Part shown: in pieces, positions 3,413 to 42,850 of the stretch
How positions within the stretch are numbered: the first letter of the stretch is position 1
Layout of the letters: every line of letters starts with the position of its first letter
Virus record (IMG/VR): IMGVR_UViG_3300036393_000023
Coordinates: 1-42,850 of that record
DNA length: 42,850 nt
Reading direction: 5' to 3' (one strand)
From: a virus
Notes under the pieces: model-generated
Told to the model about the DNA's origin: nothing
Database searches by the model: none
The model's input: the letters and a program-made list of their open reading frames with translations, nothing else
Made by a program: the position numbers and the translations under genes

Positions 3413-3425
3413 AACCCTTACGGCC

Positions 3426-5014: not shown

Positions 5015-5364
5015 GCGACATTCCGACCTGGGTGCGCAGAGGCCAGAAGGTCGTTTGCCTCGGCGACGACGTAAAGGTTGCGGTGCTGTCAAAGGAGCGG
5101 GGGCTGGGCGAACAATTCCCTGTCCATGGAGGCATCTACACCATTCGCTCCACCTTCTTCGCGGCCTCCGGTGAGCTTTGCATTCGCCTCGTCGAGATCA
5201 CGAACAAAAAGCACCGCTATATCGGTGGCCTGCTGGAGGTTGGCTTCGAAGCGAAAAGTTTTGAGCCGTTAGTCGACGACGCAAACACAAGCGAAGTCGA
5301 AGCCGAGATGTTTCGTGCGAGACCGCGATCAGTTTCGGCTCCCCGGGGGAGGGCCGACGCATGA
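5011..5364 (+). CDS. Conserved small early phage protein
   Basis: A 117-residue protein with a compact beta-rich centre (GEQFPVHGGIYTIR then LCIRLVEITNKK) that looks like a small SH3-like or barrel fold. Similar proteins of unknown function occur in early operons of alphaproteobacterial phages. The last 30 residues are low-complexity and Arg-rich. It overlaps both neighbours by 4 bases, so it belongs to the coupled early operon. Confidence 0.6.
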   Translation: MSDIPTWVRRGQKVVCLGDDVKVAVLSKERGLGEQFPVHGGIYTIRSTFFAASGELCIRLVEITNKKHRYIGGLLEVGFEAKSFEPLVDDANTSEVEAEMFRARPRSVSAPRGRADA

Positions 5365-6830
5365 CCTCACTCATTCGCTACGAGGCAGCGCGCGAGGCGC
5401 TGGCGGAGGCTCTGCGGGTCGACGAGGTGCTCGACGTGCGCAACGTGGCCGAGCAGATGCGGCTCTATGGCCGGCAGGCCAAGGACCGCAAGATCATCGC
5501 CGACGCAACCTCGCTGCAACTGCGGGCCGAGCGGAAGCTCGGGGTGCTGCTGATCAGCGCCAAGGAAACCGGACAGCTGGGCATCGGTCGGCCGGGCAAA
5601 TCCAACCTGGGGCCGCAGGCGACCGACAGCGACGACGGCGAAAAAGGTACCGAGGCGGTACCGTTTACCCGCGCCACGCTCGCGGAAGTGGGCGTCGACA
5701 AGAAGCTGTCGGCCAAGGCGCAGCAATGGGCGCGGCTCGGCGACGCGGATTTCGAGGCGCGGCTCGCCGAGGTGCGGGAGAAGATCGAGAGCGGCGGCGC
5801 CATTGTCGTCAACCCGCTGAAAGACCTGAGCACGGCGCAGAAGAAGGCCTCGCGGGTGACGCGTGAGGCTGAGCTCGGCCGCAAGCAGATGGCGCTGCCC
5901 GAGGCGAAGTTCGGGGTGATCCTGACGGATGACGAATGGGAGCACCGCGCCTGGTCGGACGCCGGCCTCGGCAAGGCGGCGGCCAACCACTACCCGGTTT
6001 CCAGCCTCGACGAGTTGAAGAAGCGCGACGTCGCCAGCCTCGCCGCTCCCGACACCGTGCTGTTCATGTGGTCGACGGCGCCACACCTGGCGCAGGCGAT
6101 CGAGCTGATGGCGCATCGTGGATTTGAGTACAAGACCTGCAGCATCTGGAAGAAGATCTATCCGGGTGACGGCCACGGAACTGGCTACTGGTTCTGGATC
6201 GATCACGAGATCCTCCTGGTCGGGACGCGCGGCAACCCGCCAGCGCCGGCGCCTGGCACGCAATGGCATTCGGTGATCGAGGCGCCAGTTGGCCGACACT
6301 CCGAAAAACCCGAAATCTTCTACGAGCTGATCGAGGCCTATTTCCCGACGCTGCCGAAGATCGAGCTCAACGCCCGCGTGCGTCGCGAGGGTTGGGCTCG
6401 GTGGGGATATGAGGCGCCGAGGGAGACGGTGACGGAGCGTGCCCCGGTAGAGCCTGCCGTAAACGCGGCAGGGGACGGAGACGGTCTCCGGTTGAAGGGG
6501 AACGCTGCCGTAGGTAACGCGGCAGACCAGCGCGGCGTAGGCGTGCGCGACAATGGCGCTTTGGCCGACGGGGTTTCCACACAACGCGAGGATGGCGCCT
6601 CGCCCGCTTCGCCACCGTTCCGCTTCACGCCAGCCGACGACTCCGTGCTGCGCGCCGCCTATGCGCTGCCGATCGAGCAGTTCGACCTGGCGATTGTTGC
6701 CGCCACCATCGGCTGCAGCAAGGAACAGGCCAAGAAGCGTGCCAGCTACCTGAAGCTCGGCAGCCGCGCGCGGCAGCGGGCGAAGGCCAGCGAGTACACG
6801 GCCGGTCAGCACGCGCGGGGAGAGCTGTGA
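5361..6830 (+). CDS. MT-A70-family adenine methyltransferase with fused N- and C-terminal domains
   Basis: A 489-residue protein in three parts. Residues 1-165 match an N-terminal helical module (RYEAAREALAEALRVDEV...QMRLYGRQAKDR) often fused to phage DNA-modifying enzymes. Residues about 180-355 are an MT-A70 methyltransferase: FGVILTDDEWEH, FMWSTAPHL, YKTCSIWKK, WIDHEILLVGTRG, RHSEKPEIFYELIEAYFP. The family makes N6-methyladenine. After a linker, residues 415-489 look like a helix-turn-helix (FTPADDSVLRAAYA...ATIGCSKEQAKKRASYL). The usual catalytic DPPW is DDEW here (residues 190-193), so activity is uncertain. Confidence 0.85.
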   Translation: MTSLIRYEAAREALAEALRVDEVLDVRNVAEQMRLYGRQAKDRKIIADATSLQLRAERKLGVLLISAKETGQLGIGRPGKSNLGPQATDSDDGEKGTEAVPFTRATLAEVGVDKKLSAKAQQWARLGDADFEARLAEVREKIESGGAIVVNPLKDLSTAQKKASRVTREAELGRKQMALPEAKFGVILTDDEWEHRAWSDAGLGKAAANHYPVSSLDELKKRDVASLAAPDTVLFMWSTAPHLAQAIELMAHRGFEYKTCSIWKKIYPGDGHGTGYWFWIDHEILLVGTRGNPPAPAPGTQWHSVIEAPVGRHSEKPEIFYELIEAYFPTLPKIELNARVRREGWARWGYEAPRETVTERAPVEPAVNAAGDGDGLRLKGNAAVGNAADQRGVGVRDNGALADGVSTQREDGASPASPPFRFTPADDSVLRAAYALPIEQFDLAIVAATIGCSKEQAKKRASYLKLGSRARQRAKASEYTAGQHARGEL

Positions 6831-11913: not shown

Positions 11914-13121
11914 CGCTCCCCGCCAACCTTGCCGCGCTGCGCGATGAAGCGATGCGGACCAGCTGCGAGGGCTGGGCCATCCAGAAGCGCTGGCCGCTGG
12001 GGCGGGGCATCGACCGCGCAGGGCCGTGCCCGATGTGCGGCGGCACCGACCGTTTTGCCATCCACACCAAGAAGAACACCTTCAACTGCCGCGGCTGCGG
12101 CATCGCCGGCGCCGGGGTGATCGACCTGGTGATGGCGACCGAGGGCGTCGAGTTCATCGTGGCCTGCGAGATCATCACCGGGCGGAAGGCCGAGACGGAA
12201 ACCGACCCGGCGCGGGCCGAGCAGTTGCGGCGCGACGCGGAGGCGGCCGAGGCGAAGCGCGAGGCCGATGCAGCGCGCTATCGCGAGGAAGCGCGGAAGG
12301 CGGCCTATCGCGTGTGGCGGACCGGCTACCCGGCGCGCTGGTCATCGTCGATGCCGGGGCCGGTGGTGAGCTACCTGCGGCTGCGCGGGGTGGATTTCCC
12401 CGGGGTGACCGCGAAGGCGATCGGCGACCAGGTGAAGCTGCTCGAGCTCGATCGGCACCCGTGGAAGGAAAAGCAGGGCAACGTGTGGACCACGCTGCAC
12501 GAAGGGCCGGCGATGCTGGCGGCGGTGCAGCGGCCCGATGGGCACTTCGGCGCCATCCACATCACCTGGCTCGACCTCGAGCAGCCCAAGGGCAAGCTGG
12601 TGCTGCCGCCGATCGAGCAGGTCGACGGCGACGGCGTGGTGAAGACGATCGAGCGGCCGACCAAAAAGGTGCTGGGCGCCAAGAAGGGCGGCGCCATCCG
12701 GCTCTACACGCCGGAAAAGCCGCACCGCATGGTGATGGGCGAGGGGATCGAGACGACGTTGACGGCGCTGGCGCACGGCTATGAGCGCGACACGGCCTAT
12801 TGGGCCGGCGTCGACCTGCCCAACATGAGCGGGCGGGCGGCGCGCAGCGAAAGCGGCGGGCAGATCTGGGACCAGCCCGACCTCGCCGATGTCGACTGCT
12901 TCGTGCCGCCCGACTGGTGCGAGGAGCTGGTCTATCTCTGCGACAGCGACGAGGCGAGCAACCACACCGAGGAGAAGGTGATCCGCGGCCTGCGCCGCGC
13001 CCTGGCACTGCGTGAGGCGGCGCGGGCCGAGGGCAGGGACGTGCCGGCGCTACAGGTGAGCTATGTGCCGCCGCTGGGGGAAGGGCGAGATCTCAACGAT
13101 CTCGTGCGGGTGGGGGCATGA
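11910..13121 (+). CDS. DNA primase, zinc-finger and TOPRIM domains
   Basis: A 403-residue primase. The N-terminal zinc ribbon has Cys40, Cys43, Cys60 and Cys63 (CPMCGGTDRF, FNCRGCG). A charged linker (95-135) follows. The TOPRIM-like domain carries the glutamate in VMGEGIETTLTAL (about 275-288) and the acidic pair in YLCDSDEASN (about 343-352). It should lay down primers for phage replication with the helicase at 14110-15930; in P4 these functions are one polypeptide, here they are split. It is coupled to both neighbours by ATGA overlaps. Confidence 0.88.
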   Translation: MTLPANLAALRDEAMRTSCEGWAIQKRWPLGRGIDRAGPCPMCGGTDRFAIHTKKNTFNCRGCGIAGAGVIDLVMATEGVEFIVACEIITGRKAETETDPARAEQLRRDAEAAEAKREADAARYREEARKAAYRVWRTGYPARWSSSMPGPVVSYLRLRGVDFPGVTAKAIGDQVKLLELDRHPWKEKQGNVWTTLHEGPAMLAAVQRPDGHFGAIHITWLDLEQPKGKLVLPPIEQVDGDGVVKTIERPTKKVLGAKKGGAIRLYTPEKPHRMVMGEGIETTLTALAHGYERDTAYWAGVDLPNMSGRAARSESGGQIWDQPDLADVDCFVPPDWCEELVYLCDSDEASNHTEEKVIRGLRRALALREAARAEGRDVPALQVSYVPPLGEGRDLNDLVRVGA

Positions 13122-14113: not shown

Positions 14114-15930
14114 CCGATTCCTCCGACGACGACACCCCCAGCGATCGCGTCAAGAAGGCCATGGCCGGCAAGAAGCCGGTGACCGAGGCGCCGTTCAAGG
14201 TGATCGAGGGTGGCAAGGGCAAGACCCGGAAGCCGCGCGCCAAGAAGGCCGGCACAGGGGAGCCGCCGGCGCATGAGCACGAGCCCGATGGGCCGCAGGA
14301 CGGCGCCGAGCTCCCGCCCGATGGCGTCGGGCCCGAGGAGATGGAAAAGGCACGGCATTGCCGTGACCTCGACCAGAACGACCGCGACAACGGCCGCCGG
14401 CTGCTGATCTGGTTCGGCGACAACCTGGCTTACGTCACCGGCATGGGCTGGCTGACATGGCGCGAGACGCACTGGCAGCGCGACGAGGGCGAGCTGGGCG
14501 CGCGGCTACTGGCGCAGAACCTCGTCGACAAGATCAAGCTCGAGGCGATCGTGATCGAGGCCTCGCCGGCGCAGCAGCGGCTGCTCGATGCGGCGGCCGC
14601 GGCGCGGAAGAAGCCGGCGAACGGGCAGACGCCAGAGGACATCGCGCTGCAGCTGCGCGCCGGCAAAATCCTCGAGGCGCTGTCGAAGCGTCGATCGGAG
14701 CGGCGGAAATTCGCCGTTGGCTCGGGCAACTCGGGCAAGACCGAGGCGATGCTGAAGCAGGCCGCCAGCCTCAAATCGATCGAAGCGACGGCGCTCGATG
14801 CCGACCACAAGCAGTTCAACCTGCTCAACGGCACGCTGCGCTTCGTGAAGGTGGAGAACCCCGATTCCGACCCGGCGGCGCCGACCTTCCATTGGGAGGC
14901 GAAGTTTGAGGCGCATAATCGCACGGACATGCTGACCAAGCGCGCTGCCGTCGCCTATGACGCCGCGGCGACCTGCCCGGAGTTCGATCGGTTCCTGCTG
15001 ACGACGCAGCCCGACCAGGTGATGCGGCTGTTCCTGCAGGTGTTCCACGCCTATGCGCTGCTGCTCGGCGGCAATGACGAGCAGCGCCTGGTGTTCCATT
15101 TCGGCACCGGGGCCAACGGCAAGTCGGCCTTCCTCGAGGCGCTCGGCCGGCTGGCCGACATGTATCGCGCCGTGGTGTCGCCCGACACAATCACCGGCGA
15201 GCAGCAGCGCGACGGCAGCAAGGCCAACAGTGACATCGCGCGGCTCCACTCGAGCCGGTTCGTCACCATCGAAGAGTTGCCGCGCGGCACGCCGCTCAAG
15301 GAAAACCTGATCAAGGCGCTGACCGGCGGCACCAGGATGGTGGCGCGGTTCCTGCAGAAGGAAATCTTCGAGTTCGACCCGGTGTTCACCGCGGTGCTCT
15401 CGGGCAACGACATGCCGAACGTTTCGGGCACCGATTACGGCATCTGGCGCCGGCTGCTGCTGGTGCACTGGGGCGTGACCATCCCCGAGGCCGAGCGGCT
15501 GCCGTTCGGCGTGCTGATGGCGAAGTTCGACGCGGAACGGGCCGGGATCCTCAACTGGCTGATATCAGGCGCGCTGCGCTACCTCAACGAAGGGTTGCAG
15601 CCGTTCATCCCCGCCTCGGTGACGGCCTTCACCGAGGACTATCGCGAGGAACGCGACCATGTCGGCGTGTTCGTCAGCAGCTGCGTGATCATGGATCCCG
15701 ATCGCTCGGTGGGCGCCGGCGACATGTTCAAGGCCTATACCGACTGGTGCGAGGCCAACGGGCTGAAGCCCTGGACACAGACGGCCTTCGGCACCCGGCT
15801 GGGCGCGCTGGGCATCAAGAAGGATCGCGGCCGGCTGGTGACCTACCAGGGCGTGAAGCTGGGCGATGTGCCCACGCGCTTCGACCCCAAGACAGTGCCG
15901 CCTCGGCACGATCCGGGCTGGAGCCCCTGA
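14110..15930 (+). CDS. P4/D5-type superfamily 3 helicase
   Basis: A 606-residue replicative helicase. Residues 1-80 are a charged disordered lead. The D5_N-like domain spans about 95-300. The SF3 ATPase has Walker A FGTGANGKS (about 330-338), Walker B FVTIEELP (about 386-393), and sensor motif FTAVLSGNDMPNVSG. A C-terminal DNA-binding winged helix (AYTDWCEANGLKPWTQTAFG) follows. It would unwind the phage origin together with the separate primase. It is the last replication gene and is directly followed by the 9-bp repeat array, which supports origin recognition nearby. Confidence 0.92.
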   Translation: MTDSSDDDTPSDRVKKAMAGKKPVTEAPFKVIEGGKGKTRKPRAKKAGTGEPPAHEHEPDGPQDGAELPPDGVGPEEMEKARHCRDLDQNDRDNGRRLLIWFGDNLAYVTGMGWLTWRETHWQRDEGELGARLLAQNLVDKIKLEAIVIEASPAQQRLLDAAAAARKKPANGQTPEDIALQLRAGKILEALSKRRSERRKFAVGSGNSGKTEAMLKQAASLKSIEATALDADHKQFNLLNGTLRFVKVENPDSDPAAPTFHWEAKFEAHNRTDMLTKRAAVAYDAAATCPEFDRFLLTTQPDQVMRLFLQVFHAYALLLGGNDEQRLVFHFGTGANGKSAFLEALGRLADMYRAVVSPDTITGEQQRDGSKANSDIARLHSSRFVTIEELPRGTPLKENLIKALTGGTRMVARFLQKEIFEFDPVFTAVLSGNDMPNVSGTDYGIWRRLLLVHWGVTIPEAERLPFGVLMAKFDAERAGILNWLISGALRYLNEGLQPFIPASVTAFTEDYREERDHVGVFVSSCVIMDPDRSVGAGDMFKAYTDWCEANGLKPWTQTAFGTRLGALGIKKDRGRLVTYQGVKLGDVPTRFDPKTVPPRHDPGWSP

Positions 15931-28967: not shown

Positions 28968-29794
28968 TGGGTATCGTCGTTTCCGGCGCCTTCGCCCTCT
29001 CGCAGCTCACCGCCGAGAACGCGGACTATCCGATCGCGGGGTACGACAATCTCGCCACCGTCGACACGCTGACAACGAGCGAGGAGGACGCGAGCTTCCC
29101 GGCGACCAACCTCGCCAACCCTGCCTCCAACCTGGTGTGGAAGTCCGACAGCACGGCCGACCAGTACGTGACGGTGCTGTTCGGGGCCGAGGTCGAGGTC
29201 GATTACATCGCGGTGGCCCGCCACAATTTCGGATCCGGGCAGGTTCAGGTGACGGTCCAGGGGCTGCCGTTCGGCGGCAATCCGGCCGTTGACGGCGATT
29301 GGGATGATCTGGTCGAGGCGAACCTGCTCGCCAATGACTGGCCGGCGCTGTGGCGCTTCGTGCCCACCAACCTGATCGGGGTTCGGCTGAAGCTGGAACC
29401 CGGTTCGGTCGAGCCGCAGGCGGCGGTGCTCTATGTCGGCAAGCTGCTTGTGTTCGAGCGCGGGGTGCAGCCCGGCCACACCCCGATCCCGTATGGACGC
29501 CGGCGTGACGTCGTCAGCCCGCGTAGCCAGTCGGGGGAATACTTGGGGCGCGTCATCTCCGGCGGCGGGCTCGGCAGCTCGGTGACGATCAGCAAGCTGT
29601 CGGCGGAGTGGTATCGCTCGACCCTCGATCCGTTCTTCGAGGTTGTCGCTGATGGGCCGTTCTTCTGGGCTTGGAGCCCGGAGCGGTACCCGTCCGAAGT
29701 CGGCTACGTCTGGCTGACCAATGATCCAGTGCCGGTGCCAGACATGCCCGGCTACATCGACATCACGATGCAGATGGAAGGGCTTCTACTGTGA
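28967..29794 (+). CDS. Distal tail protein
   Basis: A 275-residue protein after the tape measure, where distal tail genes lie. Residues 40-130 resemble a discoidin-like fold (ASFPATNLANPASNLVWKSD, ADQYVTVLFGAEVEVDYIAV). The rest is beta-rich and ends with GYIDITMQMEGLLL. Assignment is by position and general fold. ATG overlaps on both sides. Confidence 0.65.
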   Translation: MGIVVSGAFALSQLTAENADYPIAGYDNLATVDTLTTSEEDASFPATNLANPASNLVWKSDSTADQYVTVLFGAEVEVDYIAVARHNFGSGQVQVTVQGLPFGGNPAVDGDWDDLVEANLLANDWPALWRFVPTNLIGVRLKLEPGSVEPQAAVLYVGKLLVFERGVQPGHTPIPYGRRRDVVSPRSQSGEYLGRVISGGGLGSSVTISKLSAEWYRSTLDPFFEVVADGPFFWAWSPERYPSEVGYVWLTNDPVPVPDMPGYIDITMQMEGLLL

Positions 29795-32325
29795 GCGAGC
29801 CCAACTACGAGCTGACCTATGTCGAGATCGATGTCGACTATTGCTCGCTGACCTACGGTGTTGCGCCGTGCACGGCGTCGATCCCCGGCACCGGCACGGC
29901 CAAGTGCTTTAACACGCGCGCGTCGTGTCAGGACCTGGGCAACTTCACCAACATCCCGGTGACGCTCCGCTTCGCCGTGGCGTCGTCTTTCCGTCCGCTC
30001 GATATCGAGGTCGAGGCCGCGAACATCGAGAGCGTCAGCTACTCGCCGACGATCATTTCGCTGGGAGAGAACCTGGGCCAGCGCTCGTCGCTGACCGTGA
30101 CGTTCAAGGATCAACGGCATAGCGACACCGGCCCCGCCGGGGACAAGTATCTCGCCGATCGCGACTACAATCCCTACGAGCAGGGGACCTACTGGGGCAA
30201 GTTCCGCACTCGGCAGCAGTTCTTACGCGGCCGTCCGCTGCGGCTGATCCAAGGGACGGTGGGGCAGACCCTCGCCGAGATGGACACTCGGCACTTCATA
30301 GTCGAGAGCTTCGATGGTCCCGGCCTCGACGGCATGTTCACCATCACCGCCAAGGACGTGCTGAAGCTCGCCGATGCCGATCGCGCGCAGGCGCCGTTGT
30401 TGTCGCAAGGCTCGCTGACTGCCGACATCAACAGCGCGGTGACGGCTGCCGTTCTGGCTCCGGTTGGCATCGGCAACAGTTCCTACCCAGCCTCGGGCTA
30501 TCTCAATATCGGCGGCAAGGAGATCGTGGCTTTCACCCGGTCGGGCGACAACCTGACGATCACCCGAGCGCAGTTCGGCACGGAGGCCACGGACCACAAG
30601 GCGGGCGACCGCTGCCAGGTGTGCCTGATCTACGATGCCGAAGACCCGGCCGACGTCATCGCCGATCTCTTCGAAAACTATGCCTCGATCCCGTCGAGCG
30701 CGATTCCGCTGGCGAGTTGGCAGGCGGAGACGGCGGCCTATTATCGGCGGCTGGTGTCCGCGTGCATCGCCGAACCGACATCGGTCAACAAGCTGGTGTC
30801 CGAGCTCATCGTGCAGTGTGGCCTCGCGATCTGGCCCGATGACGTTGAGAACATCATCCGCTTGCAGGTGCTGCGCAACATCGCCACGGACGCCGAGCGG
30901 TTCGACGACAGCAACATCGTGGCGCAGTCGCTGCGGGTGCGAGAGCAGCCCGAGAAGCGCATCTCACAGGTCTGGACGTTCTTCGGGCTCAAGACGCCGC
31001 TGCTGCCGCTTGACGATACCTCGAGCTATCGGTCCAGCGCGCGGCTCGTGGACCTAGACGCCGAAGAGAACTACGGCCAACCCGCCATCAGAAAAATCTT
31101 CAGCCGGTGGATACCCGCCGGCGGGCTAACCATCGCGCAGCGCACCAACCAGATCCAGTTGGGTCGCTATGTCAAAGCGCCCCGCGCCTTCAGCTACAGC
31201 CTGTTCCGGCGCGGCGCCGATACGCCGGAGCTCGGGGAGGGTTGCCGAGTTCTCGGGCTGCCTATGCAGGACCTGACTGGGGCCTATGAGAACGTCCCTG
31301 CGCAGATCACCCGGCTCAACCCCGGCGTGGGCCTCTGGGAGGTCGAGGCCACCGAGGTGCTGTTCAATAGCGCCTATGACGAGGGCGACGGCACGCCCAC
31401 GGTGATCTTCGATGCCAACGAGTTGAACGTCGATCTGCTGACCCGGTTCGAGGACTTGTTCCCGCCGGCGGAGCACGGCGACACGGTCGACTTCTATGTC
31501 AACGAGGGAGTGATTATCGGGTCAAGTTCGACTGGTGCCACCGCGATGACGGTGGGCAACTGGCCGACGCAGGCAGTGACAGGCAACCGCACGAGCGGGT
31601 CGCCGATCGTCTCCGGGCTCAGCGTCGACACGGCGACATGGGCTGCGGTCGGGCAGCGGGTGTTCGGAACCGGCATCCCGGCCGGGGCCAAGATCCTCAC
31701 CGTCGACAGCTCAAGCCAGATCACGCTTGACGCGAACGCTTCGTCGGGTGCCGGCACCAGCACGGCGCTGACGGTGCACACAGTGATCATCAACCTCTAC
31801 CTTCGAGGTCGAATTCAGGGGAAGGGCGGCAACGGCGGGCAGGGTGGGACAGCGTTCAATACCACGGCCGGCGACGGTAGCCCGGGGCAGGCAGGCGGCC
31901 TCGCGTTGTATTCTCGCTATGGGGTCAACCTGTTTCTCGACGTGGGCGATGCCGAGGTTTTCGGCGGCGGCGGTGGTGGCGGTGGCGCCTCGGTATGGTT
32001 CTACTCGCTGGGAGACGGCGGTGGTGGCGGAGCCGGCAGCGTTCCGGGCTCGGGCGGCGCCATCGGCGGCACTGCTGTCGGAGAGCAACCGGGCGCGCCA
32101 GGTACAACGGAAGCTGGCGGCTCCGGCGGTCACAATACGGGTTACGGCGGCAGCAACCCCCATGGTGGGAATGGGGGCGGTCCGGGGATCGCCGGCGCAT
32201 CAGGCACGACTTTCGGTAGCGGCTATGACGGCGGCGCCGGAGGTGCGGCTGGCGGCGCAATCGACGGCGTGAGCTACTTGGTCAAGACCGGTGTCGGCGA
32301 TATCCGCGGAACACAGGTCAACTGA
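29791..32325 (+). CDS. Tail tip/host-specificity protein with glycine-rich C-terminus
   Basis: An 844-residue protein. Residues 1-540 form a tail hub-like region with several cysteines near the start (VDYCSLTYGVAPCTASIPG) and repeated beta segments. Residues 545-660 include a linker of Thr/Ser-rich strands. Residues 670-830 are extremely glycine-rich (runs such as FGGGGGGGGAS, GDGGGGGAGS, GNGGGPG). Glycine-rich stretches of this kind form polyglycine-II helices in receptor-binding tips of other phages. The protein likely contacts the host receptor. It is the largest gene of the module and is followed by a sulfotransferase. Confidence 0.75.
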   Translation: MSEPNYELTYVEIDVDYCSLTYGVAPCTASIPGTGTAKCFNTRASCQDLGNFTNIPVTLRFAVASSFRPLDIEVEAANIESVSYSPTIISLGENLGQRSSLTVTFKDQRHSDTGPAGDKYLADRDYNPYEQGTYWGKFRTRQQFLRGRPLRLIQGTVGQTLAEMDTRHFIVESFDGPGLDGMFTITAKDVLKLADADRAQAPLLSQGSLTADINSAVTAAVLAPVGIGNSSYPASGYLNIGGKEIVAFTRSGDNLTITRAQFGTEATDHKAGDRCQVCLIYDAEDPADVIADLFENYASIPSSAIPLASWQAETAAYYRRLVSACIAEPTSVNKLVSELIVQCGLAIWPDDVENIIRLQVLRNIATDAERFDDSNIVAQSLRVREQPEKRISQVWTFFGLKTPLLPLDDTSSYRSSARLVDLDAEENYGQPAIRKIFSRWIPAGGLTIAQRTNQIQLGRYVKAPRAFSYSLFRRGADTPELGEGCRVLGLPMQDLTGAYENVPAQITRLNPGVGLWEVEATEVLFNSAYDEGDGTPTVIFDANELNVDLLTRFEDLFPPAEHGDTVDFYVNEGVIIGSSSTGATAMTVGNWPTQAVTGNRTSGSPIVSGLSVDTATWAAVGQRVFGTGIPAGAKILTVDSSSQITLDANASSGAGTSTALTVHTVIINLYLRGRIQGKGGNGGQGGTAFNTTAGDGSPGQAGGLALYSRYGVNLFLDVGDAEVFGGGGGGGGASVWFYSLGDGGGGGAGSVPGSGGAIGGTAVGEQPGAPGTTEAGGSGGHNTGYGGSNPHGGNGGGPGIAGASGTTFGSGYDGGAGGAAGGAIDGVSYLVKTGVGDIRGTQVN

Positions 32326-32326
32326 G

Positions 32327-32947
32327 ATGCATCTAGTCATCGTTTCCCCGCCCCGCGCGGGGGCGCACATGCTGCGATCGATGCTGCGGGCAGAGCCGTT
32401 GGTTGACGATATCGGCGCCTTCATCTTTCCCGATGATGGGCAGGTCGTCGATCCGCCGCCGACTTCTCGCACTGGGGATGTGCGCGCGGTCTATGAGCGT
32501 GAGCTGGCAGCGAGGCCCGGCCGGTTGCTGCTGTCGCACGTCAAGCTGATGCACGGGCACTTCGATGCGATCCGCGCGGCGGCGGACACCGGTGGGCTGT
32601 TCGTGATGCTCACACGGTGCGATCGGCTGGCACAGGCGTGCTCGCTGATCCTCGCGATGCAGCACGGGGCGTTTATCAAGCCCGCGCCCCAAGGTGCGAC
32701 AATCGCGCCAGACCCAGCACATGTGCGCTCCTTGATCGACCGGATCGCTCGTATCGAAGAGACGGGCCGGCGTTACCTCGAAGGCCTTCCGTTCGTAGAC
32801 CTCGCCTACGAGGACTTGCTGCCGGAACGCGTGGCCGCCTCGGTGCTCGAACTCACGGGCATGAAACTCACCGTCGCCGAACCCACCACCCGCAAGAGCG
32901 CGCCCCGGCTCGCCGATTTTGTGACCAATCTCTCGGAGCATTTCTGA
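32327..32947 (+). CDS. Stf0-like sulfotransferase
   Basis: A 206-residue protein. The N-terminal PPRAGAHMLRSML (8-20) corresponds to the 5'-phosphosulfate loop. Residues 95-107 (LTRCDRLAQACSL) carry the Arg and Ser of the 3'-phosphate site in the RxDxxxQAxS form typical of Stf0. The C-terminal LAYEDLLPERVAASVLELTG is the family's closing motif. It should transfer sulfate from PAPS to a hydroxyl, often on a glycolipid. Its place between tail-tip and fibre genes suggests a surface-glycan target. It starts right after the tip gene stop and overlaps the fibre gene. Confidence 0.8.
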   Translation: MHLVIVSPPRAGAHMLRSMLRAEPLVDDIGAFIFPDDGQVVDPPPTSRTGDVRAVYERELAARPGRLLLSHVKLMHGHFDAIRAAADTGGLFVMLTRCDRLAQACSLILAMQHGAFIKPAPQGATIAPDPAHVRSLIDRIARIEETGRRYLEGLPFVDLAYEDLLPERVAASVLELTGMKLTVAEPTTRKSAPRLADFVTNLSEHF

Positions 32948-33804
32948 TGGCACTCGCGCACGTCGAGTTCGATGCTACTGACGAGTCCGGCAACCTGCTC
33001 AGTAATGTGCAGGCGCGCGTGGAGCTCGAAGGCGGCGGCTTGGTCTCGATCTACTCGGACCGGGCAGGCTCGACGCCTTACAGCAACCCGCAGACCTTCG
33101 CCGACGGCAAGATCAGCTTCTATGTCGCCGGCGGGGTGTACAAGATCACGCTGACCGCAGGGGCGTTCAGCCGGGTCTTGCGCTACAAAGCGAGCGGGTT
33201 GCTGCAGGAAAAGGATGCCATATCGGCGGCGGCTGTGTCGTTCACGCCGGCGGCGGGGATTGGGGCAACAAACGTGCAGGCCGCGATTGAGGAGCTTGCT
33301 GAGGGATGGGAGGTGATTGGCAAAGACTCTGTCTTGGCCACTGCATCCTGGGTGAAGACTGGCCTATCGGCCTTCAAGAATCTTCGTCTCACCATGTCGT
33401 GGCAGCCAGCAACCGACGGCGCCATACTGTTTTTGCGCACGTCAACCAATGGCGGCACCAGCTACGACAGCGGGGCATCGGACTACACCACTCAGTTCGT
33501 GCAGGCGTACGATGCAACGGTTACCAGCGGCCGCGCCAACCAGGCCGAAATGCGTGTGTTGGCCGGTACAGGCAACGCCTCTGGCGAACTGGCGTCGACC
33601 GTGGTGACACTCTTCGATTTCAACAAGGCCCGAACATGCACTGCTGTGTCTTTGACCGCGATCATCGACGGCAGCACACTTCTCTATAAGTCGGACCGTG
33701 CGTTCAGCCGAAATAGCCAGGTGGCAAGAGATGCCATCCAACTGGTCCCCTCAGCGGGCAACATCGGCTTTCTTGAAGTGCTTCTGGAAGGAATACGCGG
33801 ATGA
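32947..33804 (+). CDS. Tail fibre-like protein
   Basis: A 285-residue protein. Residues 1-80 are a carboxypeptidase-regulatory-like beta domain (FDATDESGNLLSNVQARVEL, ISFYVAGGVYKITLTAGAF), common at fibre bases. Then comes a TPAAGIGATNVQAAIEELAE segment, a motif frequent in phage fibres before coiled repeats. The C-terminal domain (150-285) is beta-rich with Ser/Thr and Asn. GC content drops slightly in this half. It likely trimerises as a side or tip fibre. Confidence 0.72.
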   Translation: MALAHVEFDATDESGNLLSNVQARVELEGGGLVSIYSDRAGSTPYSNPQTFADGKISFYVAGGVYKITLTAGAFSRVLRYKASGLLQEKDAISAAAVSFTPAAGIGATNVQAAIEELAEGWEVIGKDSVLATASWVKTGLSAFKNLRLTMSWQPATDGAILFLRTSTNGGTSYDSGASDYTTQFVQAYDATVTSGRANQAEMRVLAGTGNASGELASTVVTLFDFNKARTCTAVSLTAIIDGSTLLYKSDRAFSRNSQVARDAIQLVPSAGNIGFLEVLLEGIRG

Positions 33805-34247
33805 AGAAGTTCGTGTCTGGCCTAGGGGAGGTCGAGATGACGGCCGACGAGGAGGCCGCTTACATCGCACAACAGGCAATTGATGAGGCCGGCTCCGTAA
33901 CGGCCTCAGATATCGAGGCTGAAAGAACGAGACGCCTGAGCGCCGGATTCGACTTCGATTTCGGTGACGATCGTGGCGTGCACCATATCGGCACCTCGGC
34001 TGCCGACATGGTCGGGTGGCAGGAAGTCACGATGCTCGCCAATGCCTATCTAGCAATGGAAGGTGGCGAGCGCCGGATTTCCATTGCTACGGACTCCGGC
34101 GCAGCGGTCGTAACTCCCCTGGAATGGCAGAGCATTCTCATCGCTGCCGCAGCCTTCAGGCAACCCATCTGGATTGCAAGCTTTGCCCTTGCTTCGCTCG
34201 ACCCCATCCCCAACGACTTCAAGGAAGATAAGTACTGGGAGGTCTAG
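33801..34247 (+). CDS. DUF4376-like tail fibre accessory protein
   Basis: A 148-residue protein. IEAERTRRLSAGFDFDFGDDRG followed by GWQEVTMLANAYLAM matches the pattern of DUF4376 domains found downstream of tail fibres, thought to aid fibre folding or cap it. The start overlaps the fibre gene by ATGA. It is the last clear gene of the late structural operon. Confidence 0.65.
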   Translation: MKKFVSGLGEVEMTADEEAAYIAQQAIDEAGSVTASDIEAERTRRLSAGFDFDFGDDRGVHHIGTSAADMVGWQEVTMLANAYLAMEGGERRISIATDSGAAVVTPLEWQSILIAAAAFRQPIWIASFALASLDPIPNDFKEDKYWEV

Positions 34248-34280
34248 CGCTCGTCGCGTTGCTGTGCGATCCATCTCTGG

Positions 34281-35231
34281 ATGCTCGGTGTCCTTCGCTT
34301 CACTTTGGCCATAGCGGTCGTGATCTATCACCTGAACCCAGCCTTCGCCGCGTTCTCCGGTGGCCTAGCGGTGTTTGGGTTCTACACTGTGTCCGGCTTT
34401 CTGGTCGCCCGGATCCTTGACGAGACCTATCAAGGACGCCCAATCGACTACCTCATCAACCGGGCACTGCGAATATATCCGGCCTACTGGGTCGTTGCCG
34501 TTGCCGGCGCGGTCCTAGCCTCGTCGGAAGGCTCACACCTGAACCCCGCTATTGCGTTACCAGGATCGGTTGCGGAGACCGTTCCTCAGTTCACGATCTT
34601 CGGCCTGCTACAGGTGCAAGGAGGGCCTATCGCAATTCGGCTTGTGCCTCCGGCGTGGTCGCTCAACATGGAGATCGTTTGGTACTTGGTGATGATCATG
34701 GCAGTGCGTCACCTTCGCACTTGGCTGATGGTCGGGCTGGCGGTCGCGGTGTGGACTACGATCACTAACGATGCGTTCGTTGCCTACAATACCTTCATCG
34801 GACCAACGTTTTGCTTCGCGCTCGGCGCTGCCGGCCATCACTATCGAGACAAGCTCCCGGCAGTTCCGTCTTGGCTGGCTTGGCCATTGCTTGCCGGGCT
34901 CATGGCTGTCAGCAGCTACTTTGTGAACCAGGTCTGGATACTGTTCCTAGCGAGCGGCTTCACGTTCCTCGTCATACTTACGCCTCGATCGAGAGGCGCT
35001 GCATCGCTCTCCATTGACAGATGGGCGGGGGCGCTCGCCTATCCGATCTTCTTGTGTCATTGGCATGTGGCCACCCTCACAGGCATGGAGCGGGGATGGC
35101 CACTATTCCTCACAAGCCTGCCCCTAATTCTCGGCGCCTCACTCCTCCTAGTTATGTTGGTGGAGCGGCCGGTGGAGCAGCATTTGAGGCGCCGTATTCG
35201 GGAGCGGCAAGCGTCGGCGCTCGCGGCCTGA
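34281..35231 (+). CDS. Membrane O-acyltransferase (acyltransferase 3 family)
   Basis: A 316-residue polytopic membrane protein with about eight to ten spans. The first span holds the conserved His17 (VVIYHL). GFYTVSGFLVARIL and RALRIYPAYWVVAVAG are hallmarks of AT3 enzymes such as OafA. PPAWSLNMEIVWYLV is the conserved WSL-E motif. These enzymes move acyl groups onto sugars of O-antigen or other surface glycans, a classic lysogenic conversion trait. Codon use is less GC-rich than in the structural genes, which suggests separate acquisition. A terminator lies about 250 bases downstream. Confidence 0.88.
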   Translation: MLGVLRFTLAIAVVIYHLNPAFAAFSGGLAVFGFYTVSGFLVARILDETYQGRPIDYLINRALRIYPAYWVVAVAGAVLASSEGSHLNPAIALPGSVAETVPQFTIFGLLQVQGGPIAIRLVPPAWSLNMEIVWYLVMIMAVRHLRTWLMVGLAVAVWTTITNDAFVAYNTFIGPTFCFALGAAGHHYRDKLPAVPSWLAWPLLAGLMAVSSYFVNQVWILFLASGFTFLVILTPRSRGAASLSIDRWAGALAYPIFLCHWHVATLTGMERGWPLFLTSLPLILGASLLLVMLVERPVEQHLRRRIRERQASALAA

Positions 35232-35479
35232 TCAACTGTCCCCTAGACCTTCGCCTCAATCTCGTCGAAGTCGCTGAACACCGCCGTCGTGGCCCGGTGG
35301 GACGGATCGATCGGCCTAGAGTACCCCAGGTCAGCCGACGGGCGATTCTGGGCCGGCGAGCGTAGCGGCTTCTTCCCCGTGAAGCCGACAGACCCCCGGC
35401 GTGCGGGGGAGCACCAGGGCTGCCTCATCCTCGGACGGGTCATCACTCGGGAATAGTCCGGCCCCATCACCGAACCTCC
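35232..35479. other. Gap after acyltransferase, no convincing gene
   Basis: About 250 bases with no clear coding unit. A minus-strand frame (35243-35512) ends in a natural-looking C-terminus (HRATTAVFSDFDEIEAKV), but its first half is Arg/Pro-rich and crosses the terminator. A GC hairpin (CCCCCG/CGGGGG, 35393-35409) lacks a T-run. It may be a relic of a small gene. Confidence 0.4.
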
Positions 35480-35507
35480 AAGGGTCATCCGCTGGGTGAC
35501 CCTTTTT
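35480..35507 (+). terminator. Intrinsic terminator before lysis cassette
   Basis: AAGGGTCA (35480-35487) pairs perfectly with TGACCCTT (35497-35504) around a 9-base loop; a run of five T covers 35503-35507. It ends the late structural/acyltransferase transcript. Confidence 0.78.
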
Positions 35508-35531
35508 GTCATCCATCACCGGAGACCACCC

Positions 35532-36647
35532 ATGAACCCCAACGTGCCCCGCGGCGCGGCGATCCTGCTCGACTTCATCTACCGCACCGAGACCGGCAAG
35601 GCCCCGCCCGACTGCTACGAGGTGATCTTCGGCCACAACCAGAGCGAGCTGCCCAAGCCGCTGACTGCGATGACGCTCGACGAGGTCGAGGCGGCACAGC
35701 CGGGCTGGACCAAGCGCTTCGGCTCCTCGGCCGCCGGCGCCGCGCAGTTCATGCGCAACACGCTCGATGCGCCCAAGACGCTGCGCGATATCGAGGGCGA
35801 GATCGGGCTGAGTGGCGCAGAGCTGTTCGATGCCGACCTGCAGGACGCCATGGCGTTCCACCTGCTGAAGCGCCGCGGCTTCTACGAATTCATCATCGGT
35901 CGCCTCAGCCCGACCGCATTCGGCAACCGGCTGGCGATGGAATGGGCATCGTTCCCCGTGCTGAGCGACATCAAGGGGGCGCACCGGCGGGTGAAGCGCG
36001 GGCAGACCTACTATGCCGGCGACGGCCGCAACAAGGTGCTGGTGAAGCCCGAGGCAGTCGAGGCGGTGCTGGCTGAGGCGCTGGCCACCCGGGCCACGGA
36101 TCCTCCGCCGGCGGAGTTCCCGCGGAAGGGGGCACGGGCCGACGAGGTGGTCGCCCAGGTGCAGCGCCGGCTGCGCGAACTCGGCTATTCCGAGGTCGGC
36201 AATGTCGATGGCGATTTCGGCACGTTGACCGAGAAAGCCATCCTGATCTTCCGTCATGACGCCGGGCTGCCGCTGAGTGGGGCGATCGACCAGCCGTTAC
36301 TGGTGGCGCTAGCCAAGGCACAGCCGCGCGAGATGCCGGCCGGCCGGGCCGAGGCCACCCCGAAGGAGGTTCGCGAGGTGGCGCCTGAGGCCAAGGCCAA
36401 CTGGTTCTCGAAGGTGGCAGGCTTCTTCGGCGCCATCACCGGCGCCTTAGTCGCCTTCGTCAACTGGATGATCGGAAGCATCGGCGAGATTCGCGACTTC
36501 GTGCAGCCGGGGCTCGACCTGCTCGCCGGCGTGCCGGTGTGGGTCTACGCCCTGGTCTTCGCCGCCGGTGCCCTGTGGCTCTACCTCAACGGTCGGAAGG
36601 GCGAGCAGGCCTCGATCGAGGCTGTGCAGGAAGGGGCGCGGCGATGA
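35532..36647 (+). CDS. Endolysin: lysozyme-like domain, peptidoglycan-binding domain, C-terminal membrane segments
   Basis: A 371-residue protein. Residues 10-145 resemble lambda R-type lytic enzymes: LLDFIYRTETG with a likely catalytic Glu (about 20) and SSAAGAAQFMRNTLD. Residues 195-260 are a PG_binding_1 domain (VQRRLRELGYSEVGNVDGDF, TEKAILIFRHDAGL). Residues 290-371 contain two hydrophobic stretches (GFFGAITGALVAFVNWMI and VWVYALVFAAGALWLYLNG). The enzyme cleaves peptidoglycan; the membrane part may anchor it or replace part of a holin. GGAG precedes ATG 35532. Confidence 0.82.
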   Translation: MNPNVPRGAAILLDFIYRTETGKAPPDCYEVIFGHNQSELPKPLTAMTLDEVEAAQPGWTKRFGSSAAGAAQFMRNTLDAPKTLRDIEGEIGLSGAELFDADLQDAMAFHLLKRRGFYEFIIGRLSPTAFGNRLAMEWASFPVLSDIKGAHRRVKRGQTYYAGDGRNKVLVKPEAVEAVLAEALATRATDPPPAEFPRKGARADEVVAQVQRRLRELGYSEVGNVDGDFGTLTEKAILIFRHDAGLPLSGAIDQPLLVALAKAQPREMPAGRAEATPKEVREVAPEAKANWFSKVAGFFGAITGALVAFVNWMIGSIGEIRDFVQPGLDLLAGVPVWVYALVFAAGALWLYLNGRKGEQASIEAVQEGARR

Positions 36648-37975: not shown

Positions 37976-38171
37976 GCCCTCTGACCAGCCAGAACCGTTC
38001 GTTCCGTTCGAAGGGCTCGACGTCTTCCTCGAGCCCGAACCAGCCGAGCCAGTAGCGGTATTCCTTGCGGCGCTCGGCCGGGTCGGTGCTGGCGAACGTC
38101 CAGCGCTGCACGCCCGGCTCGGGATACTCGACCCGGGGCATGCCCGGCTTGGGCAGCGCCTCAGTCGACAT
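37959..38171 (-). CDS. Small conserved hypothetical protein
   Basis: A 70-residue protein with a Trp/Tyr-rich core (VQRWTFASTDPAERRKEYRY, WLGWFGLEEDVEPFERNER). Start ATG 38171 overlaps the end of the DNA ligase gene on the same strand, so the two form a leftward pair. No family is recognised, but composition is clearly protein-like. Confidence 0.6.
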   Translation of the reverse strand: MSTEALPKPGMPRVEYPEPGVQRWTFASTDPAERRKEYRYWLGWFGLEEDVEPFERNERFWLVRGPSAGS

Positions 38172-39048
38172 GACGCAGCCCCTGGAGCGTGCCGTGCCGC
38201 AGCACGCCTTCGCCTCGAAGGTGTCGCACGGTTGCCGCCAGCCCCGGCAGCAACCAGGTCCCGCGCCGCTTCAGCGGCAGCGGCGGAGCCTCGACCGTGT
38301 TGGCCTCGACATAGGCCCAGAAGTCGTTCCGGTCCGCCGCCTTCAGCGTGATGAAGGCATCCCCCACATAGTGCAGTCCATGTTCATCGCGTCGCGCGAG
38401 GATCGCCACCGGCGCACCGCTTGGCGAGAGATCGGCGCCGATCACCTCGAACTCACCGACGGCGAAGGTTTTGGTCTTCAGCCATGTGTCGGCGTCGCCG
38501 CTCTTGTAGCGGCTGCCGCGCTTCTTGCTGACGATGCCCTCGAGGCCCATGGCGTCGATGGCGGCGAAGGCTTCGGGGCCATCCGCATGAAGCTCCTGGC
38601 TGAAGGCGAGGCGTGGAGCCGGCGCGCTCTGCAGGAGGTCGGAAAGCATGGCGCGCCGGCTCTCGATCGGCCTGCTGCGCAAGTCCTCGCCATCGAGGTG
38701 CAGCAGGTCGAAGGCGACGAAGATCAGATCCTGCGGTCGCCAGCGGATAGCCGTTGGTAAGCCCGAAAAATCGGCGGCCCCACGAGCGTCCGGCAGGTAG
38801 ACCTCGCCGTCAAGGATGGCGGAGGTACACCGCAATTGTGCCGCCGCCGAGACAATCTGGGGATACTTGCTGGTCCAGTTGGCGCCGCTGCTGCTGAAAG
38901 CCCGGGCCGTACCGGCCTCGACGTGCAGCTGGGTGCGGTAGCCGTCGAACTTCACTTCATGCAGCCACGCGTCGCCGCTCGGCGCTGTGTCGACGAGGCG
39001 CGGTTTCATGGGCTGGATATAGCGCAGGGCAGGGCGTTCAAGCAGCAT
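38161..39048 (-). CDS. ATP-dependent DNA ligase, LigD/LigC type
   Basis: A 295-residue ligase. The nucleotide-binding lysine is Lys33 in LHEVKFDGYR (motif I). SAILDGEVYLP is motif III, FVAFDLLHLDG motif IIIa, MGLEGIVSKKRGS motif IV and TWLKTKTF motif V. Residues 205-295 form the oligonucleotide-binding fold. The order is that of LigD ligase domains, without polymerase or phosphoesterase domains. It may repair nicks or help phage DNA end joining. It is transcribed leftward with the 70-residue protein, away from the lysis genes. ATG 39048 is the earliest start; ATG 39009 is possible. Confidence 0.88.
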   Translation of the reverse strand: MLLERPALRYIQPMKPRLVDTAPSGDAWLHEVKFDGYRTQLHVEAGTARAFSSSGANWTSKYPQIVSAAAQLRCTSAILDGEVYLPDARGAADFSGLPTAIRWRPQDLIFVAFDLLHLDGEDLRSRPIESRRAMLSDLLQSAPAPRLAFSQELHADGPEAFAAIDAMGLEGIVSKKRGSRYKSGDADTWLKTKTFAVGEFEVIGADLSPSGAPVAILARRDEHGLHYVGDAFITLKAADRNDFWAYVEANTVEAPPLPLKRRGTWLLPGLAATVRHLRGEGVLRHGTLQGLRHVD

Positions 39049-40105: not shown

Positions 40106-40648
40106 GTGGACGATATCGCCAAGCTACAGCTTTCGGCTTACTCGCCGAGGGAACTCGATATCCTCTGCCGGCGGTGCAAGCGGCATGTGTCGGTGAGGAC
40201 GTCAAAACTGAACACCCGATATGGAGATCGCCCGTTGGGCGAGATTGCGCGCCTGGTGGCTGCGGACGGCAACCCGCCATGCGCACTGGCCGCAATGGGG
40301 GAGGGTTGTTCCGTTGAAGCGGTCGAGCCGCCCTTCGAGCAATGGGCGACGCTTTCGGACGCACGCCTGGGCAATTGGGCAGGCTGGCTGGCATGTGACC
40401 GGCGCCGCGCATCACTGAAGCCGGCAAAAGCCTGCCCCGGCGAGTTCGTGGTCGACGTGCACTCACTCCTGATGGTGATGCCTTACGATTTCCCGCTCTC
40501 AAAGCTGCCGCGGCACCTGAAGTGCCCCGAGTGCCAATCCGACCATGTGCTGATCAGGTGGGAGAAGCTGCAGGCGCCGGCACCGACCGCGCCGGCGGTT
40601 CGCCGATCGGCCGGCATGGGGCGGGGCGGGTTGAGGGTAGTGCGCTAG
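40106..40648 (+). CDS. Protein with two zinc-knuckle-like Cys pairs
   Basis: A 180-residue protein. CRRCKRHVSVRTSKLNTRYG near the N-terminus and LKCPECQSDHVLIRW near residue 145 each contain a CxxC pair that could together bind zinc. The GTG start at 40106 follows the previous stop after four bases. The function is unknown. Its 3' end overlaps the convergent integrase by 4 bases. Confidence 0.6.
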   Translation: MDDIAKLQLSAYSPRELDILCRRCKRHVSVRTSKLNTRYGDRPLGEIARLVAADGNPPCALAAMGEGCSVEAVEPPFEQWATLSDARLGNWAGWLACDRRRASLKPAKACPGEFVVDVHSLLMVMPYDFPLSKLPRHLKCPECQSDHVLIRWEKLQAPAPTAPAVRRSAGMGRGGLRVVR

Positions 40649-41727
40649 GATGTGGCCGTAAGGTAAGGCAGCCATTTCCAACCGGCATACTTGTCGCCAG
40701 TTGCGCGCATGTGTGTGTAGCGCTTCAGAGACTGCCACGACCGGTGGCCTGAGAACGAAGCGACCTGGGGGATAGTCTTGCCCAACTCGAACAGCCGCGA
40801 AACGCCATCGTGCCTCAGGTCGTGGAAAACCAGATCCTCGATCCCAAGCAACTGACAGGCTCTGGTGAAGTTCGCGGTGATCGCATCGGCAGAGTAGGGG
40901 AAGATGCGACCGTCTTCCGACACCGGCATCGAGTCGATGATCGCGATGGCCTCCGGCGGCAATTCGCACCACTGATCGTTGCCCGCCTTCTCCCCAGGGT
41001 GCTTCATGTCGCGGACCAAAATCCGTGCCCCTTCGCGATCGAAGTCTTCGCGCCTCAGCCGCACGATCTCGGACTCGCGCCGGGTGGAGAAGATCGCGAA
41101 GCCGGTGACCTTGCCCATCGGCAGCATGCGAGGTCGCCGTATCCGTCGATCCTCGAAGTGAGCCAAGAGTTTGTCGAGTTCGTCGAGGGTAGGGCGACGT
41201 GCCCGCTCACGGGACTTGGCGACTTGACCCAATCGCCTGAGCACGACCTGCGCATCGATCATCGCCTGCCGGCTCAGCGGAATCTTCCACGCTGGTTCGG
41301 CGACAGCAAAGACGGCCGACAGGTGCGAGATGTAGTTGCCAACCGTTGCAGCTGTGCGCCCCTCGCCGAGTTCGCCCGCGAATGCGACGATGTCGGAGCT
41401 GCCGATATCCTCTGCTGCCATGCTCGCGATGCCGTAGGTCTTTATTGACCGAAGGACCTGGGCCTTGGTGCGCCCGATTTCCTTGAGCGACTCCCTCGTG
41501 TAGCGGTCGATGGCATCGGCAAGCGTTTCGCCCTTGCGCTTGGCTCGATCAAGGCCGCCCGGTGCCCTAAGCTCGGCCTCTCGCTTTTCCAGCCACGTCG
41601 CAGCGGCCTGCCGCCGATCAAAGGTTCGCGCCTCACGGTGGACAACGGCGCCGTCTTTCTTCAGAACGATTTGCGCCGTATATCCGGTCGTGCCGTCCTT
41701 GCGCTTGCGCGGCGCTATGCTTCCCAT
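40645..41727 (-). CDS. int: Tyrosine recombinase (dusA-type prophage integrase)
   Basis: A 360-residue integrase. Residues 1-55 are an arm-binding domain (RKRKDGTTGYTAQIVLKKDG). A SAM-like core-binding domain lies at about 75-175. The catalytic domain includes RRESEIVRLRREDF and the box His302-x-x-Arg305 (FHDLRHDG), with His328 (GHRSW) and nucleophile Tyr337 (KRYTHM). It lies divergent from the 5' end of dusA, the position defining dusA-associated integrases. It catalyses insertion and, with a directionality factor, excision. ATG 41727 has AGGA upstream. Confidence 0.93.
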   Translation of the reverse strand: MGSIAPRKRKDGTTGYTAQIVLKKDGAVVHREARTFDRRQAAATWLEKREAELRAPGGLDRAKRKGETLADAIDRYTRESLKEIGRTKAQVLRSIKTYGIASMAAEDIGSSDIVAFAGELGEGRTAATVGNYISHLSAVFAVAEPAWKIPLSRQAMIDAQVVLRRLGQVAKSRERARRPTLDELDKLLAHFEDRRIRRPRMLPMGKVTGFAIFSTRRESEIVRLRREDFDREGARILVRDMKHPGEKAGNDQWCELPPEAIAIIDSMPVSEDGRIFPYSADAITANFTRACQLLGIEDLVFHDLRHDGVSRLFELGKTIPQVASFSGHRSWQSLKRYTHMRATGDKYAGWKWLPYLTATS

Positions 41728-41836: not shown

Positions 41837-42850
41837 ATGCCTGCGAACGCAGGGGAGTTCGAGATTTCCAAGGCACGCCGCTTCAGCGTTGCCCCGATGA
41901 TGGACTGGACGGATCGGCATTGCCGTTATCTGCATCGGCTCCTCACGTCGCACGCGTTGCTGTTCACCGAGATGGTGACCAGCGCGGCGGTGGTGCATGG
42001 ACCGCGCGAGCGGCTGTTGGGGTTCGACCAGGTCGAGCAGCCAGTGGCGCTGCAGCTTGGCGGTTCCGATCCCAAGGAGCTGGCCGAGGCGACCCGCATC
42101 GCCACCGAGTTCGGTTATCGTGAGATCAACCTCAATGTCGGTTGTCCGTCCGACCGGGTGCAGTCGGGCCGCTTCGGTGCCTGCCTGATGGCCGAACCGG
42201 AGCTGGTCGCCGAGTGCGTCCGCGCCATGCGCGGTGCCACCGATGTGCCGGTAACGGTGAAGTGCCGCATCGGCATCGATGACCAGGACACCGAGGAGAG
42301 CCTCGATCGCTTTGCCGACGCCATGTTCGCGGCCGGCGTCGCGGCGCTCTACGTGCATGCCCGCAAGGCCTGGCTCAAGGGCCTGAGCCCCAAGGAAAAC
42401 CGCGAGATCCCGCCGCTCGACTACCCGCGTGTCTACCGCCTCGCCGAGCGGCTCAAGCCTCTGCCGGTGATAATCAATGGCGGCATCAAGACCATCAGGG
42501 ACGCCGAGGCGCACATGGCGCACATGTCCGGCGTCATGCTCGGCCGCGTCGCCTACCACGAGCCGATGCTGCTGACGCTGGTCGACGAGCGCTTCTTCGG
42601 CGCGCCGAAGCAGTCGGTCGAGCTGCGTGACGTGATGCTTGCCATGGCCGACTACGCCGAGCGCGAAATCGGCAAGGGCGCCCGCCTCAACAACATCACC
42701 CGCCATATGCTGGGGCTGGCCAACGCCCGCGCCGGCGCCCGCACCTTCCGCCAGATCCTCAGTGTCGACGCGGCCAAGCGCGGCGCAGGTCCTGAGGTGA
42801 TCATGCGGGCGTTCGACGCGCTGGAGCCGGAACTGCAGCTGGCGGTCTAG
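41837..42850 (+). CDS. dusA: tRNA-dihydrouridine synthase A
   Basis: A 337-residue chromosomal enzyme that reduces uridine to dihydrouridine in the D-loop of tRNAs (positions 20/20a in E. coli) using FMN and NADPH. FMN-site motifs are FSVAPMMDWTDRHCRYLHRL and INLNVGCPSDRVQSGRFGAC (with the catalytic Cys), then VKCRIGIDD, YVHARKAWLKGLSPKENREI split over the substrate face, and INGGIKT. ATG 41837 is preferred (GAGAAGG upstream); further upstream the frame only mirrors int. Prophage integration at the 5' end means the first codons and promoter may now be phage-derived. Confidence 0.95.
   Translation: MPANAGEFEISKARRFSVAPMMDWTDRHCRYLHRLLTSHALLFTEMVTSAAVVHGPRERLLGFDQVEQPVALQLGGSDPKELAEATRIATEFGYREINLNVGCPSDRVQSGRFGACLMAEPELVAECVRAMRGATDVPVTVKCRIGIDDQDTEESLDRFADAMFAAGVAALYVHARKAWLKGLSPKENREIPPLDYPRVYRLAERLKPLPVIINGGIKTIRDAEAHMAHMSGVMLGRVAYHEPMLLTLVDERFFGAPKQSVELRDVMLAMADYAEREIGKGARLNNITRHMLGLANARAGARTFRQILSVDAAKRGAGPEVIMRAFDALEPELQLAV
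41891..41930. other. Probable attR region inside dusA 5' end
   Basis: dusA-targeting integrases are known to recombine in the conserved 5' part of dusA, where the protein reads APMMDWTDRHCR. The corresponding bases are about 41891-41930. The matching attL is outside this window, so the core cannot be defined by repeat comparison. Confidence 0.35.

Follow-up and report, generated by a model that had tools for sequence, protein, structure and literature searches.

The locus raised the question of why a phage carries a gene for a sulfotransferase-like protein between the genes for its tail tip and its fibre, and what such an enzyme would act upon. The DNA analysed, referred to here as the window, comprises 42,850 bases and comes from IMG/VR as a virus record; the features that bear on the question are collected in Table 1. 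A first-pass annotation had described an Stf0-like enzyme with both PAPS-site motifs, encoded by a prophage, and had suggested that it could sulfate a surface glycan. The observation was confirmed by our analysis and the interpretation was partly supported.

Table 1. Coordinates of the features of the window discussed in the text
Feature	Position	Strand	Basis
Tail-tip/adhesin gene, 844 aa, glycine-rich C-terminus	29791..32325	+	phrog_11439, phrog_2056
Predicted Stf0-like PAPS sulfotransferase gene, 206 aa	32327..32947	+	ORF, Stf0 profile alignment, PAPS-site residues
Fibre gene	32947..33804	+	N-terminal ~75 residues recur 3' of tail tip in relatives
Small ORF, fibre-associated by position only	33801..34247	+	phrog_27624 (function unassigned), 3e-9
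Acyltransferase-3 (O-acetyltransferase type) gene	34281..35231	+	PF01757 5e-15; phrog_3333 O-acetyltransferase 2e-21
Terminator-like hairpin, 11 pairs and T tail	35480..35504	+	3' of acyltransferase gene
Tyrosine integrase gene	40645..41727	-	PF00589 4e-12
dusA, host tRNA-dihydrouridine synthase gene	41837..42850	+	PF01207 1e-82; adjoins integrase gene

The window encodes a lambda-type tail tube protein (PF16461, 1.5e-40), a tape measure protein, a tail-tip protein and an S24/HTH repressor, and a temperate siphophage is part of our best explanation of the locus. Prophages and islands are known to integrate at dusA (PMC4482086). As the tyrosine integrase gene adjoins dusA and the repressor is also present, the phage is most likely a dusA prophage, with dusA as the likely integration site, and the prophage status that had been proposed is supported. 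The DusA protein was at most 62% identical to any found in the 385 alphaproteobacterial genomes sampled, which would suit a host from a lineage with few sampled genomes or from outside the Alphaproteobacteria. An ATP-dependent DNA ligase gene (PF01068, 5e-25) was also observed on the minus strand at 38161-39048, with the lysis region on one side and the integrase gene on the other.

The sulfotransferase-like ORF begins with an ATG at 32327 and ends with a TGA at 32945-32947. Its junction with the tail-tip gene reads TGAGATG, in which one base separates the tail-tip TGA from the ATG, and its junction with the fibre gene reads TGATG, in which one base is common to the stop and the fibre ATG. These junctions and the exact coordinates bear out the placement of the gene within the tail-tip/fibre cluster with coupled junctions. 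Further downstream, the start of the small ORF at 33801 overlaps the fibre stop at 33804 as ATGA. The sulfotransferase-like frame is open and coding, according to its third-position GC of 0.77 and a codon-preference score of 0.197 in frame, whereas the remaining five frames score between -0.27 and 0.11. The tail-tip protein matched phrog_11439, named 'tail fiber protein' (2e-115), and phrog_2056 (5e-7), and 29 phage records matched it. The fibre gene had no Pfam or PHROG match above threshold, and its N-terminus was common to the gene in the equivalent place in 48 relatives.

Taken one sequence at a time, the evidence for a sulfotransferase was marginal, with weak Pfam and NCBIfam scores and no match among PHROGs or PDB sequences. 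The Pfam family PF09037 (Stf0) matched residues 81-182 with an E-value of 0.0057 and 16.6 bits, below its gathering cut-off of 22 bits, and a six-frame search gave the gene an E-value of 3.9e-4 (14.2 bits). The NCBIfam trehalose 2-sulfotransferase model gave 0.068. PF13469 reached only an E-value of 0.13 with Pfam, over residues 4-27, and a separate PF13469 search covering the window and 42 of its 80 viral relatives gave no match in the window at E<=1.

The identification is carried by the alignment of profiles. An Stf0 profile was built from the PF09037 proteins of alphaproteobacterial genomes (present in 15 of 289 genomes), for which the more complete 17 of the 25 matched stretches were chosen as rows. 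The window protein aligned to this profile by hhalign with a probability of 97.95%, an E-value of 3.1e-13 and a score of 85, covering residues 4-197 and 191 columns. By comparison, none of 100 shuffles scored above 20 and none of 27 other ORFs of the window, including the antisense ORF, above 18.5, and the reversed sequence scored 12.7. When the resulting 18-sequence profile was searched against the PDB, it retrieved the solved Stf0 structure 1tex (4e-43), CurM and NodH, while the protein-tyrosine sulfotransferases were far weaker by sequence, with E-values of 0.007 and above.

According to a review, the hallmarks of sulfotransferases are the Lys/Arg of the PSB loop and the Ser of the PB motif (PMC11625862). 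In the joint alignment of 18 sequences the only invariant residues were R10, G12, R97 and S106, of which the Arg and Gly fall in the PSB loop (residues 6-16) and the second Arg and the Ser in the 3'-phosphate motif (residues 92-112). Both PAPS motifs that had been proposed were recovered, the first in a diverged form, with PPRAGAHML in place of the family PRSGSTLL and without the usual Ser/Thr after the Gly. From its sequence, the protein is a diverged PAPS-type sulfotransferase that is Stf0-like, with its membership of PF09037 uncertified. It is also short, at 206 aa against the 244 positions of the PF09037 profile, and is about 20% identical to the family members.

One substitution bears on whether the chemistry is that of Stf0. 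Ala31 occupies the column of the Stf0 catalytic residue, which we take to be the Glu of EFF in 1tex, and the family rows carry Glu (10 of 17) or Ser (7 of 17) in this column. This residue, the diverged PSB loop and the lack of any conserved relative found in other phages would suit a PAPS-type fold that is inactive or that acts on a small intracellular molecule, lying beside the fibre gene by accident. We consider this unlikely, as the frame is open and coding, and the four residues invariant among the 17 family members have been kept despite an identity of about 20%, which suggests selection.

Structure prediction can be used as support only. The single-sequence model had a pLDDT of 44.6, and no sulfotransferase was among its Foldseek matches. 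An AlphaFold model from a three-sequence alignment, which contained two viral Stf0 proteins, was also of low confidence (pLDDT 46, pTM 0.46), with an order of elements that fits the strand-loop-helix and strand-turn-helix arrangement. Its first, second and third Foldseek ranks against the PDB were 1tex (E 3e-6), and tyrosylprotein sulfotransferases were among the further matches. Against viral proteins, some of the matches of this model were named sulfotransferase, and many were unnamed or nucleotide kinases.

Sequence relatives of the protein were sought more widely. No close relative was found in plasmids or, at an E limit of 0.01, in phages, and peptide-pattern searches, which demand exact short matches and would let distant relatives escape, gave 10 pattern matches in viral contigs and 77 in genome contigs, none of them confirmed. 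The 385 alphaproteobacterial genomes gave six matches at E<=0.01 and none below 0.001, which is about chance level. PF09037 was found in none of the 43 viral relatives searched (of 80) at E<=1, and tblastn with three Stf0 family proteins against 50,697 phage records gave nothing. Among open-licence full texts, no paper was found that describes a phage tail operon with an Stf0 gene.

Pattern scans of IMG/VR yielded Stf0 genes on two contigs, L123 and L124, and such genes therefore seem rare in viruses. On L124, which is unrelated to the window, the Stf0 gene (PF09037 7e-35) begins within a 445-aa ORF, four bases from its end, and this ORF itself comes after a fibre-like ORF at the end of the late gene cluster. 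Capsid-, tape-measure- and tail-like ORFs were recognised by eye upstream, and the two ORFs adjoining the Stf0 gene had no PHROG match. The Stf0 gene of L123 comes after glycosyltransferase-looking ORFs, one of them with a weak PHROG match (E 0.005). Either setting is compatible with a role connected to glycans or adhesins.

Two further observations were made on such contigs. Directly 5' of the Stf0 gene of L123 there is an ORF at 5264-5995 beginning MKTICHIGMERSGNHAIM, which recalls a sulfotransferase P-loop and had no match to Pfam or to the Stf0 profile. L131, an unrelated viral contig with an Stf0 gene, carries an ORF at 3405-4136 that looks by eye like a glycosyltransferase, within the head gene cluster.

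Whether the gene belongs to the tail module or is cargo was addressed by comparing the space between the tail-tip and fibre genes in relatives. Tail-tip loci numbered 88, from 80 viral contigs, four bacterial genomes, three phages and the window. Nine of them were truncated by the end of a contig and were excluded. Among the 79 examined, the end of the tail-tip gene was complete in 62, and a recognisable fibre N-terminus was also present in 49, namely the window and 48 relatives. Several of the 48 look like near-duplicates (L005/L011, L027/L052, L037/L040 and L042/L049), so that these are not 48 independent cases. L005 and L011 seem to be one prophage, present in an IMG/VR contig and in a Xanthobacteraceae MAG, with equal locus length, junction and fibre score.

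In 40 of these 48 relatives the fibre gene starts 3-47 bases 3' of the tail-tip stop. In the other eight the slot is 308-743 bases long; some of these inserts contain small ORFs, virion-type or unclassified, others show no clear ORF, and none of the eight is a sulfotransferase gene. The closest relative, L002, whose tail tip is 82% identical, has a 40-base gap without any gene. Because the sulfotransferase-like gene has no counterpart in the relatives, most of which have nothing between the two neighbours, it is a clean single-gene accessory insertion, similar to a moron, in an otherwise closed junction. The earlier view that the gene is not in a moron position has thus to be changed, although no promoter or terminator of its own was found for the gene.

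The gap of L002, at 12512-12551, is the longest among the relatives without an insert and resembles the 3' end of the sulfotransferase gene. A remnant of the gene was considered and was not used as evidence. Compared to shuffles, the resemblance had a p of about 0.04 when the last 45 bases were taken and of 0.47 over the gene as a whole. It could stem from a shared Shine-Dalgarno site.

A gene placed directly between two adhesin genes, with junctions coupled to both, could also serve the virion itself, by sulfating the tip or fibre, on its residues or on a glycan attached to it, ahead of assembly and thereby tuning binding or stability. The slot does hold small virion-type ORFs in L008, L009 and L018, tyrosylprotein sulfotransferases are among the structural matches of the low-confidence model, and there is a precedent in mycobacteriophages, whose enzymes have been reported to glycosylate virion proteins. 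We regard this as quite improbable, because the sequence resembles the glycan and glycolipid sulfotransferases, ahead of the protein-tyrosine enzymes, and relatives of equal tail-tip design do without the gene.

The timing of expression can be judged from the position of the gene. In the region 31900-35600, no promoter-like site was found by a scan restricted to the sigma-70 type, where 0.8 would be expected by chance. Four terminator-like sites were found against 2.5 expected, so that any one of them is weak evidence. One such match lies inside the sulfotransferase gene at 32397-32417, there is none between this gene and the fibre gene, and transcription of the tail unit may end at the hairpin 3' of the acyltransferase gene. 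The promoter scan and the hairpin suggest one late unit that comprises the tip, sulfotransferase, fibre and acyltransferase genes.

This placement bears on lysogenic conversion, in which low expression from the prophage would sulfate LPS or capsule and lead to superinfection exclusion or an altered surface. The phage is temperate, as judged from the integrase gene adjoining dusA and the repressor, and its acyltransferase belongs to the PF01757 type, which includes known converting genes, and also matches phrog_6705, named 'O-antigen acetylase'. Nevertheless, conversion is an unlikely account of the sulfotransferase gene, which sits within a same-strand row of tail genes with stop-start junctions and without a promoter-like site nearby. 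Its place in the late operon makes it less likely that a quiet lysogen expresses the gene, and a comparison of lysogen and cured strain alone may therefore miss an effect. Our analysis gave no support to the symbiosis or immune signalling that had also been suggested.

On the far side of the fibre module, the acyltransferase gene is, to judge from its family matches, a second glycan-modifying cargo gene, and no counterpart was found in the 42 viral relatives searched (of 80). In L002, a polysaccharide pyruvyl transferase gene (PF04230, 1e-13) was observed on the minus strand at 14493-15467, between the fibre and lysis genes, so that these two related phages have different glycan-modifying genes in one region. 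The presence of the acyltransferase in the gene row, and of the pyruvyl transferase 3' of the fibre in L002, supports a reading in terms of glycan modification. As to the reaction, what is known of the family points to sulfation that depends on PAPS and has a carbohydrate as its most likely substrate, and a glycan acceptor is supported by the known acceptors of Stf0-like enzymes, which are glycans or glycolipids. One of these enzymes is LpsS of Sinorhizobium, which modifies LPS and is annotated as an Stf0-family sulfotransferase (PMC12445080).

The reading that we prefer, tentatively and at somewhat less than an even chance, is that a late enzyme sulfates a host surface glycan and so alters the receptor of the neighbouring fibre. 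A single accessory sulfotransferase gene would have been inserted between the tail-tip and fibre genes of a temperate siphophage and, from its position, its translation would come late, along with that of the tail genes. The enzyme would take PAPS from the host and sulfate a hydroxyl on a surface glycan or on its lipid-linked precursor. The added charge would alter the receptor read by the neighbouring fibre, and neither the infected cell nor its debris would then be bound by sibling phages or progeny. The acyltransferase encoded beyond the fibre genes would serve that purpose as well. That the acceptor is the receptor of the fibre is something we infer, and the block to re-adsorption through surface-glycan sulfation, which had been proposed before, has circumstantial evidence in the two neighbouring glycan-modifying genes of the window and L002.

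Under receptor modification by a late enzyme, the gene would be expected to travel with the fibre, since enzyme and adhesin must match. The base composition speaks against this part of the explanation. The sulfotransferase gene has 65% GC, matching the phage, whereas the fibre gene, the next ORF and the acyltransferase gene have 58-60% GC and a codon use among the least typical, and the gene and the fibre cassette may therefore have arrived separately. That the enzyme and the fibre form one block, placing sulfate either on the host glycan read by the fibre or on the tail, with sulfation as a control of the receptor, is a proposal we think rather doubtful.

Among known systems, the protein is most similar to the Stf0 family (PF09037; trehalose 2-sulfotransferase, 1tex), which gave its best Pfam match, the near full-length profile alignment and the first Foldseek ranks, and with which it shares the RxG and R...S residues of the PAPS site. 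It differs in its sub-cut-off Pfam score, its shorter length, the absence of the Glu in the catalytic column and its low identity, and in that the gene is carried by a phage tail operon. The rhizobial enzymes LpsS and NodH (NodH PDB 9vki) are bacterial and sulfate glycans, whereas the window gene is a phage gene. LpsS is likened to it through its Stf0 annotation (PMC12445080), and NodH, which the Stf0 profile finds, has a PSB loop with the same RxG motif according to the review (PMC11625862).

Phage-borne sulfotransferases are known from marine phages and cyanophages as Sulfotransfer_3 (PF13469) genes, which belong to another family, while the window gene has the further distinction of lying between tail tip and fibre. 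The function of sulfotransferases in marine phage genomes was called unclear in a paper from 2023 (PMC10580990). The O-antigen acetylases and gtr glucosyltransferases are surface-glycan-modifying enzymes of temperate phages encoded near adhesin genes, a description that the window enzyme may share, but the window gene would add sulfate instead of an acetyl or glucosyl group and lies in a late tail row without its own promoter. Phages of the P22 type carry surface-glycan-modifying genes near their adhesin genes, and acetylation or glucosylation of surface sugars is a known means by which phages protect their receptors.

The locus is a variant of something already known, in that phages carry glycan-modifying cargo next to their adhesin genes; here the transferred group is likely to be sulfate. 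If true, receptors would be protected with another chemical currency, sulfate, and the position of the gene beside the adhesin genes gives a specific, testable guess at its acceptor.
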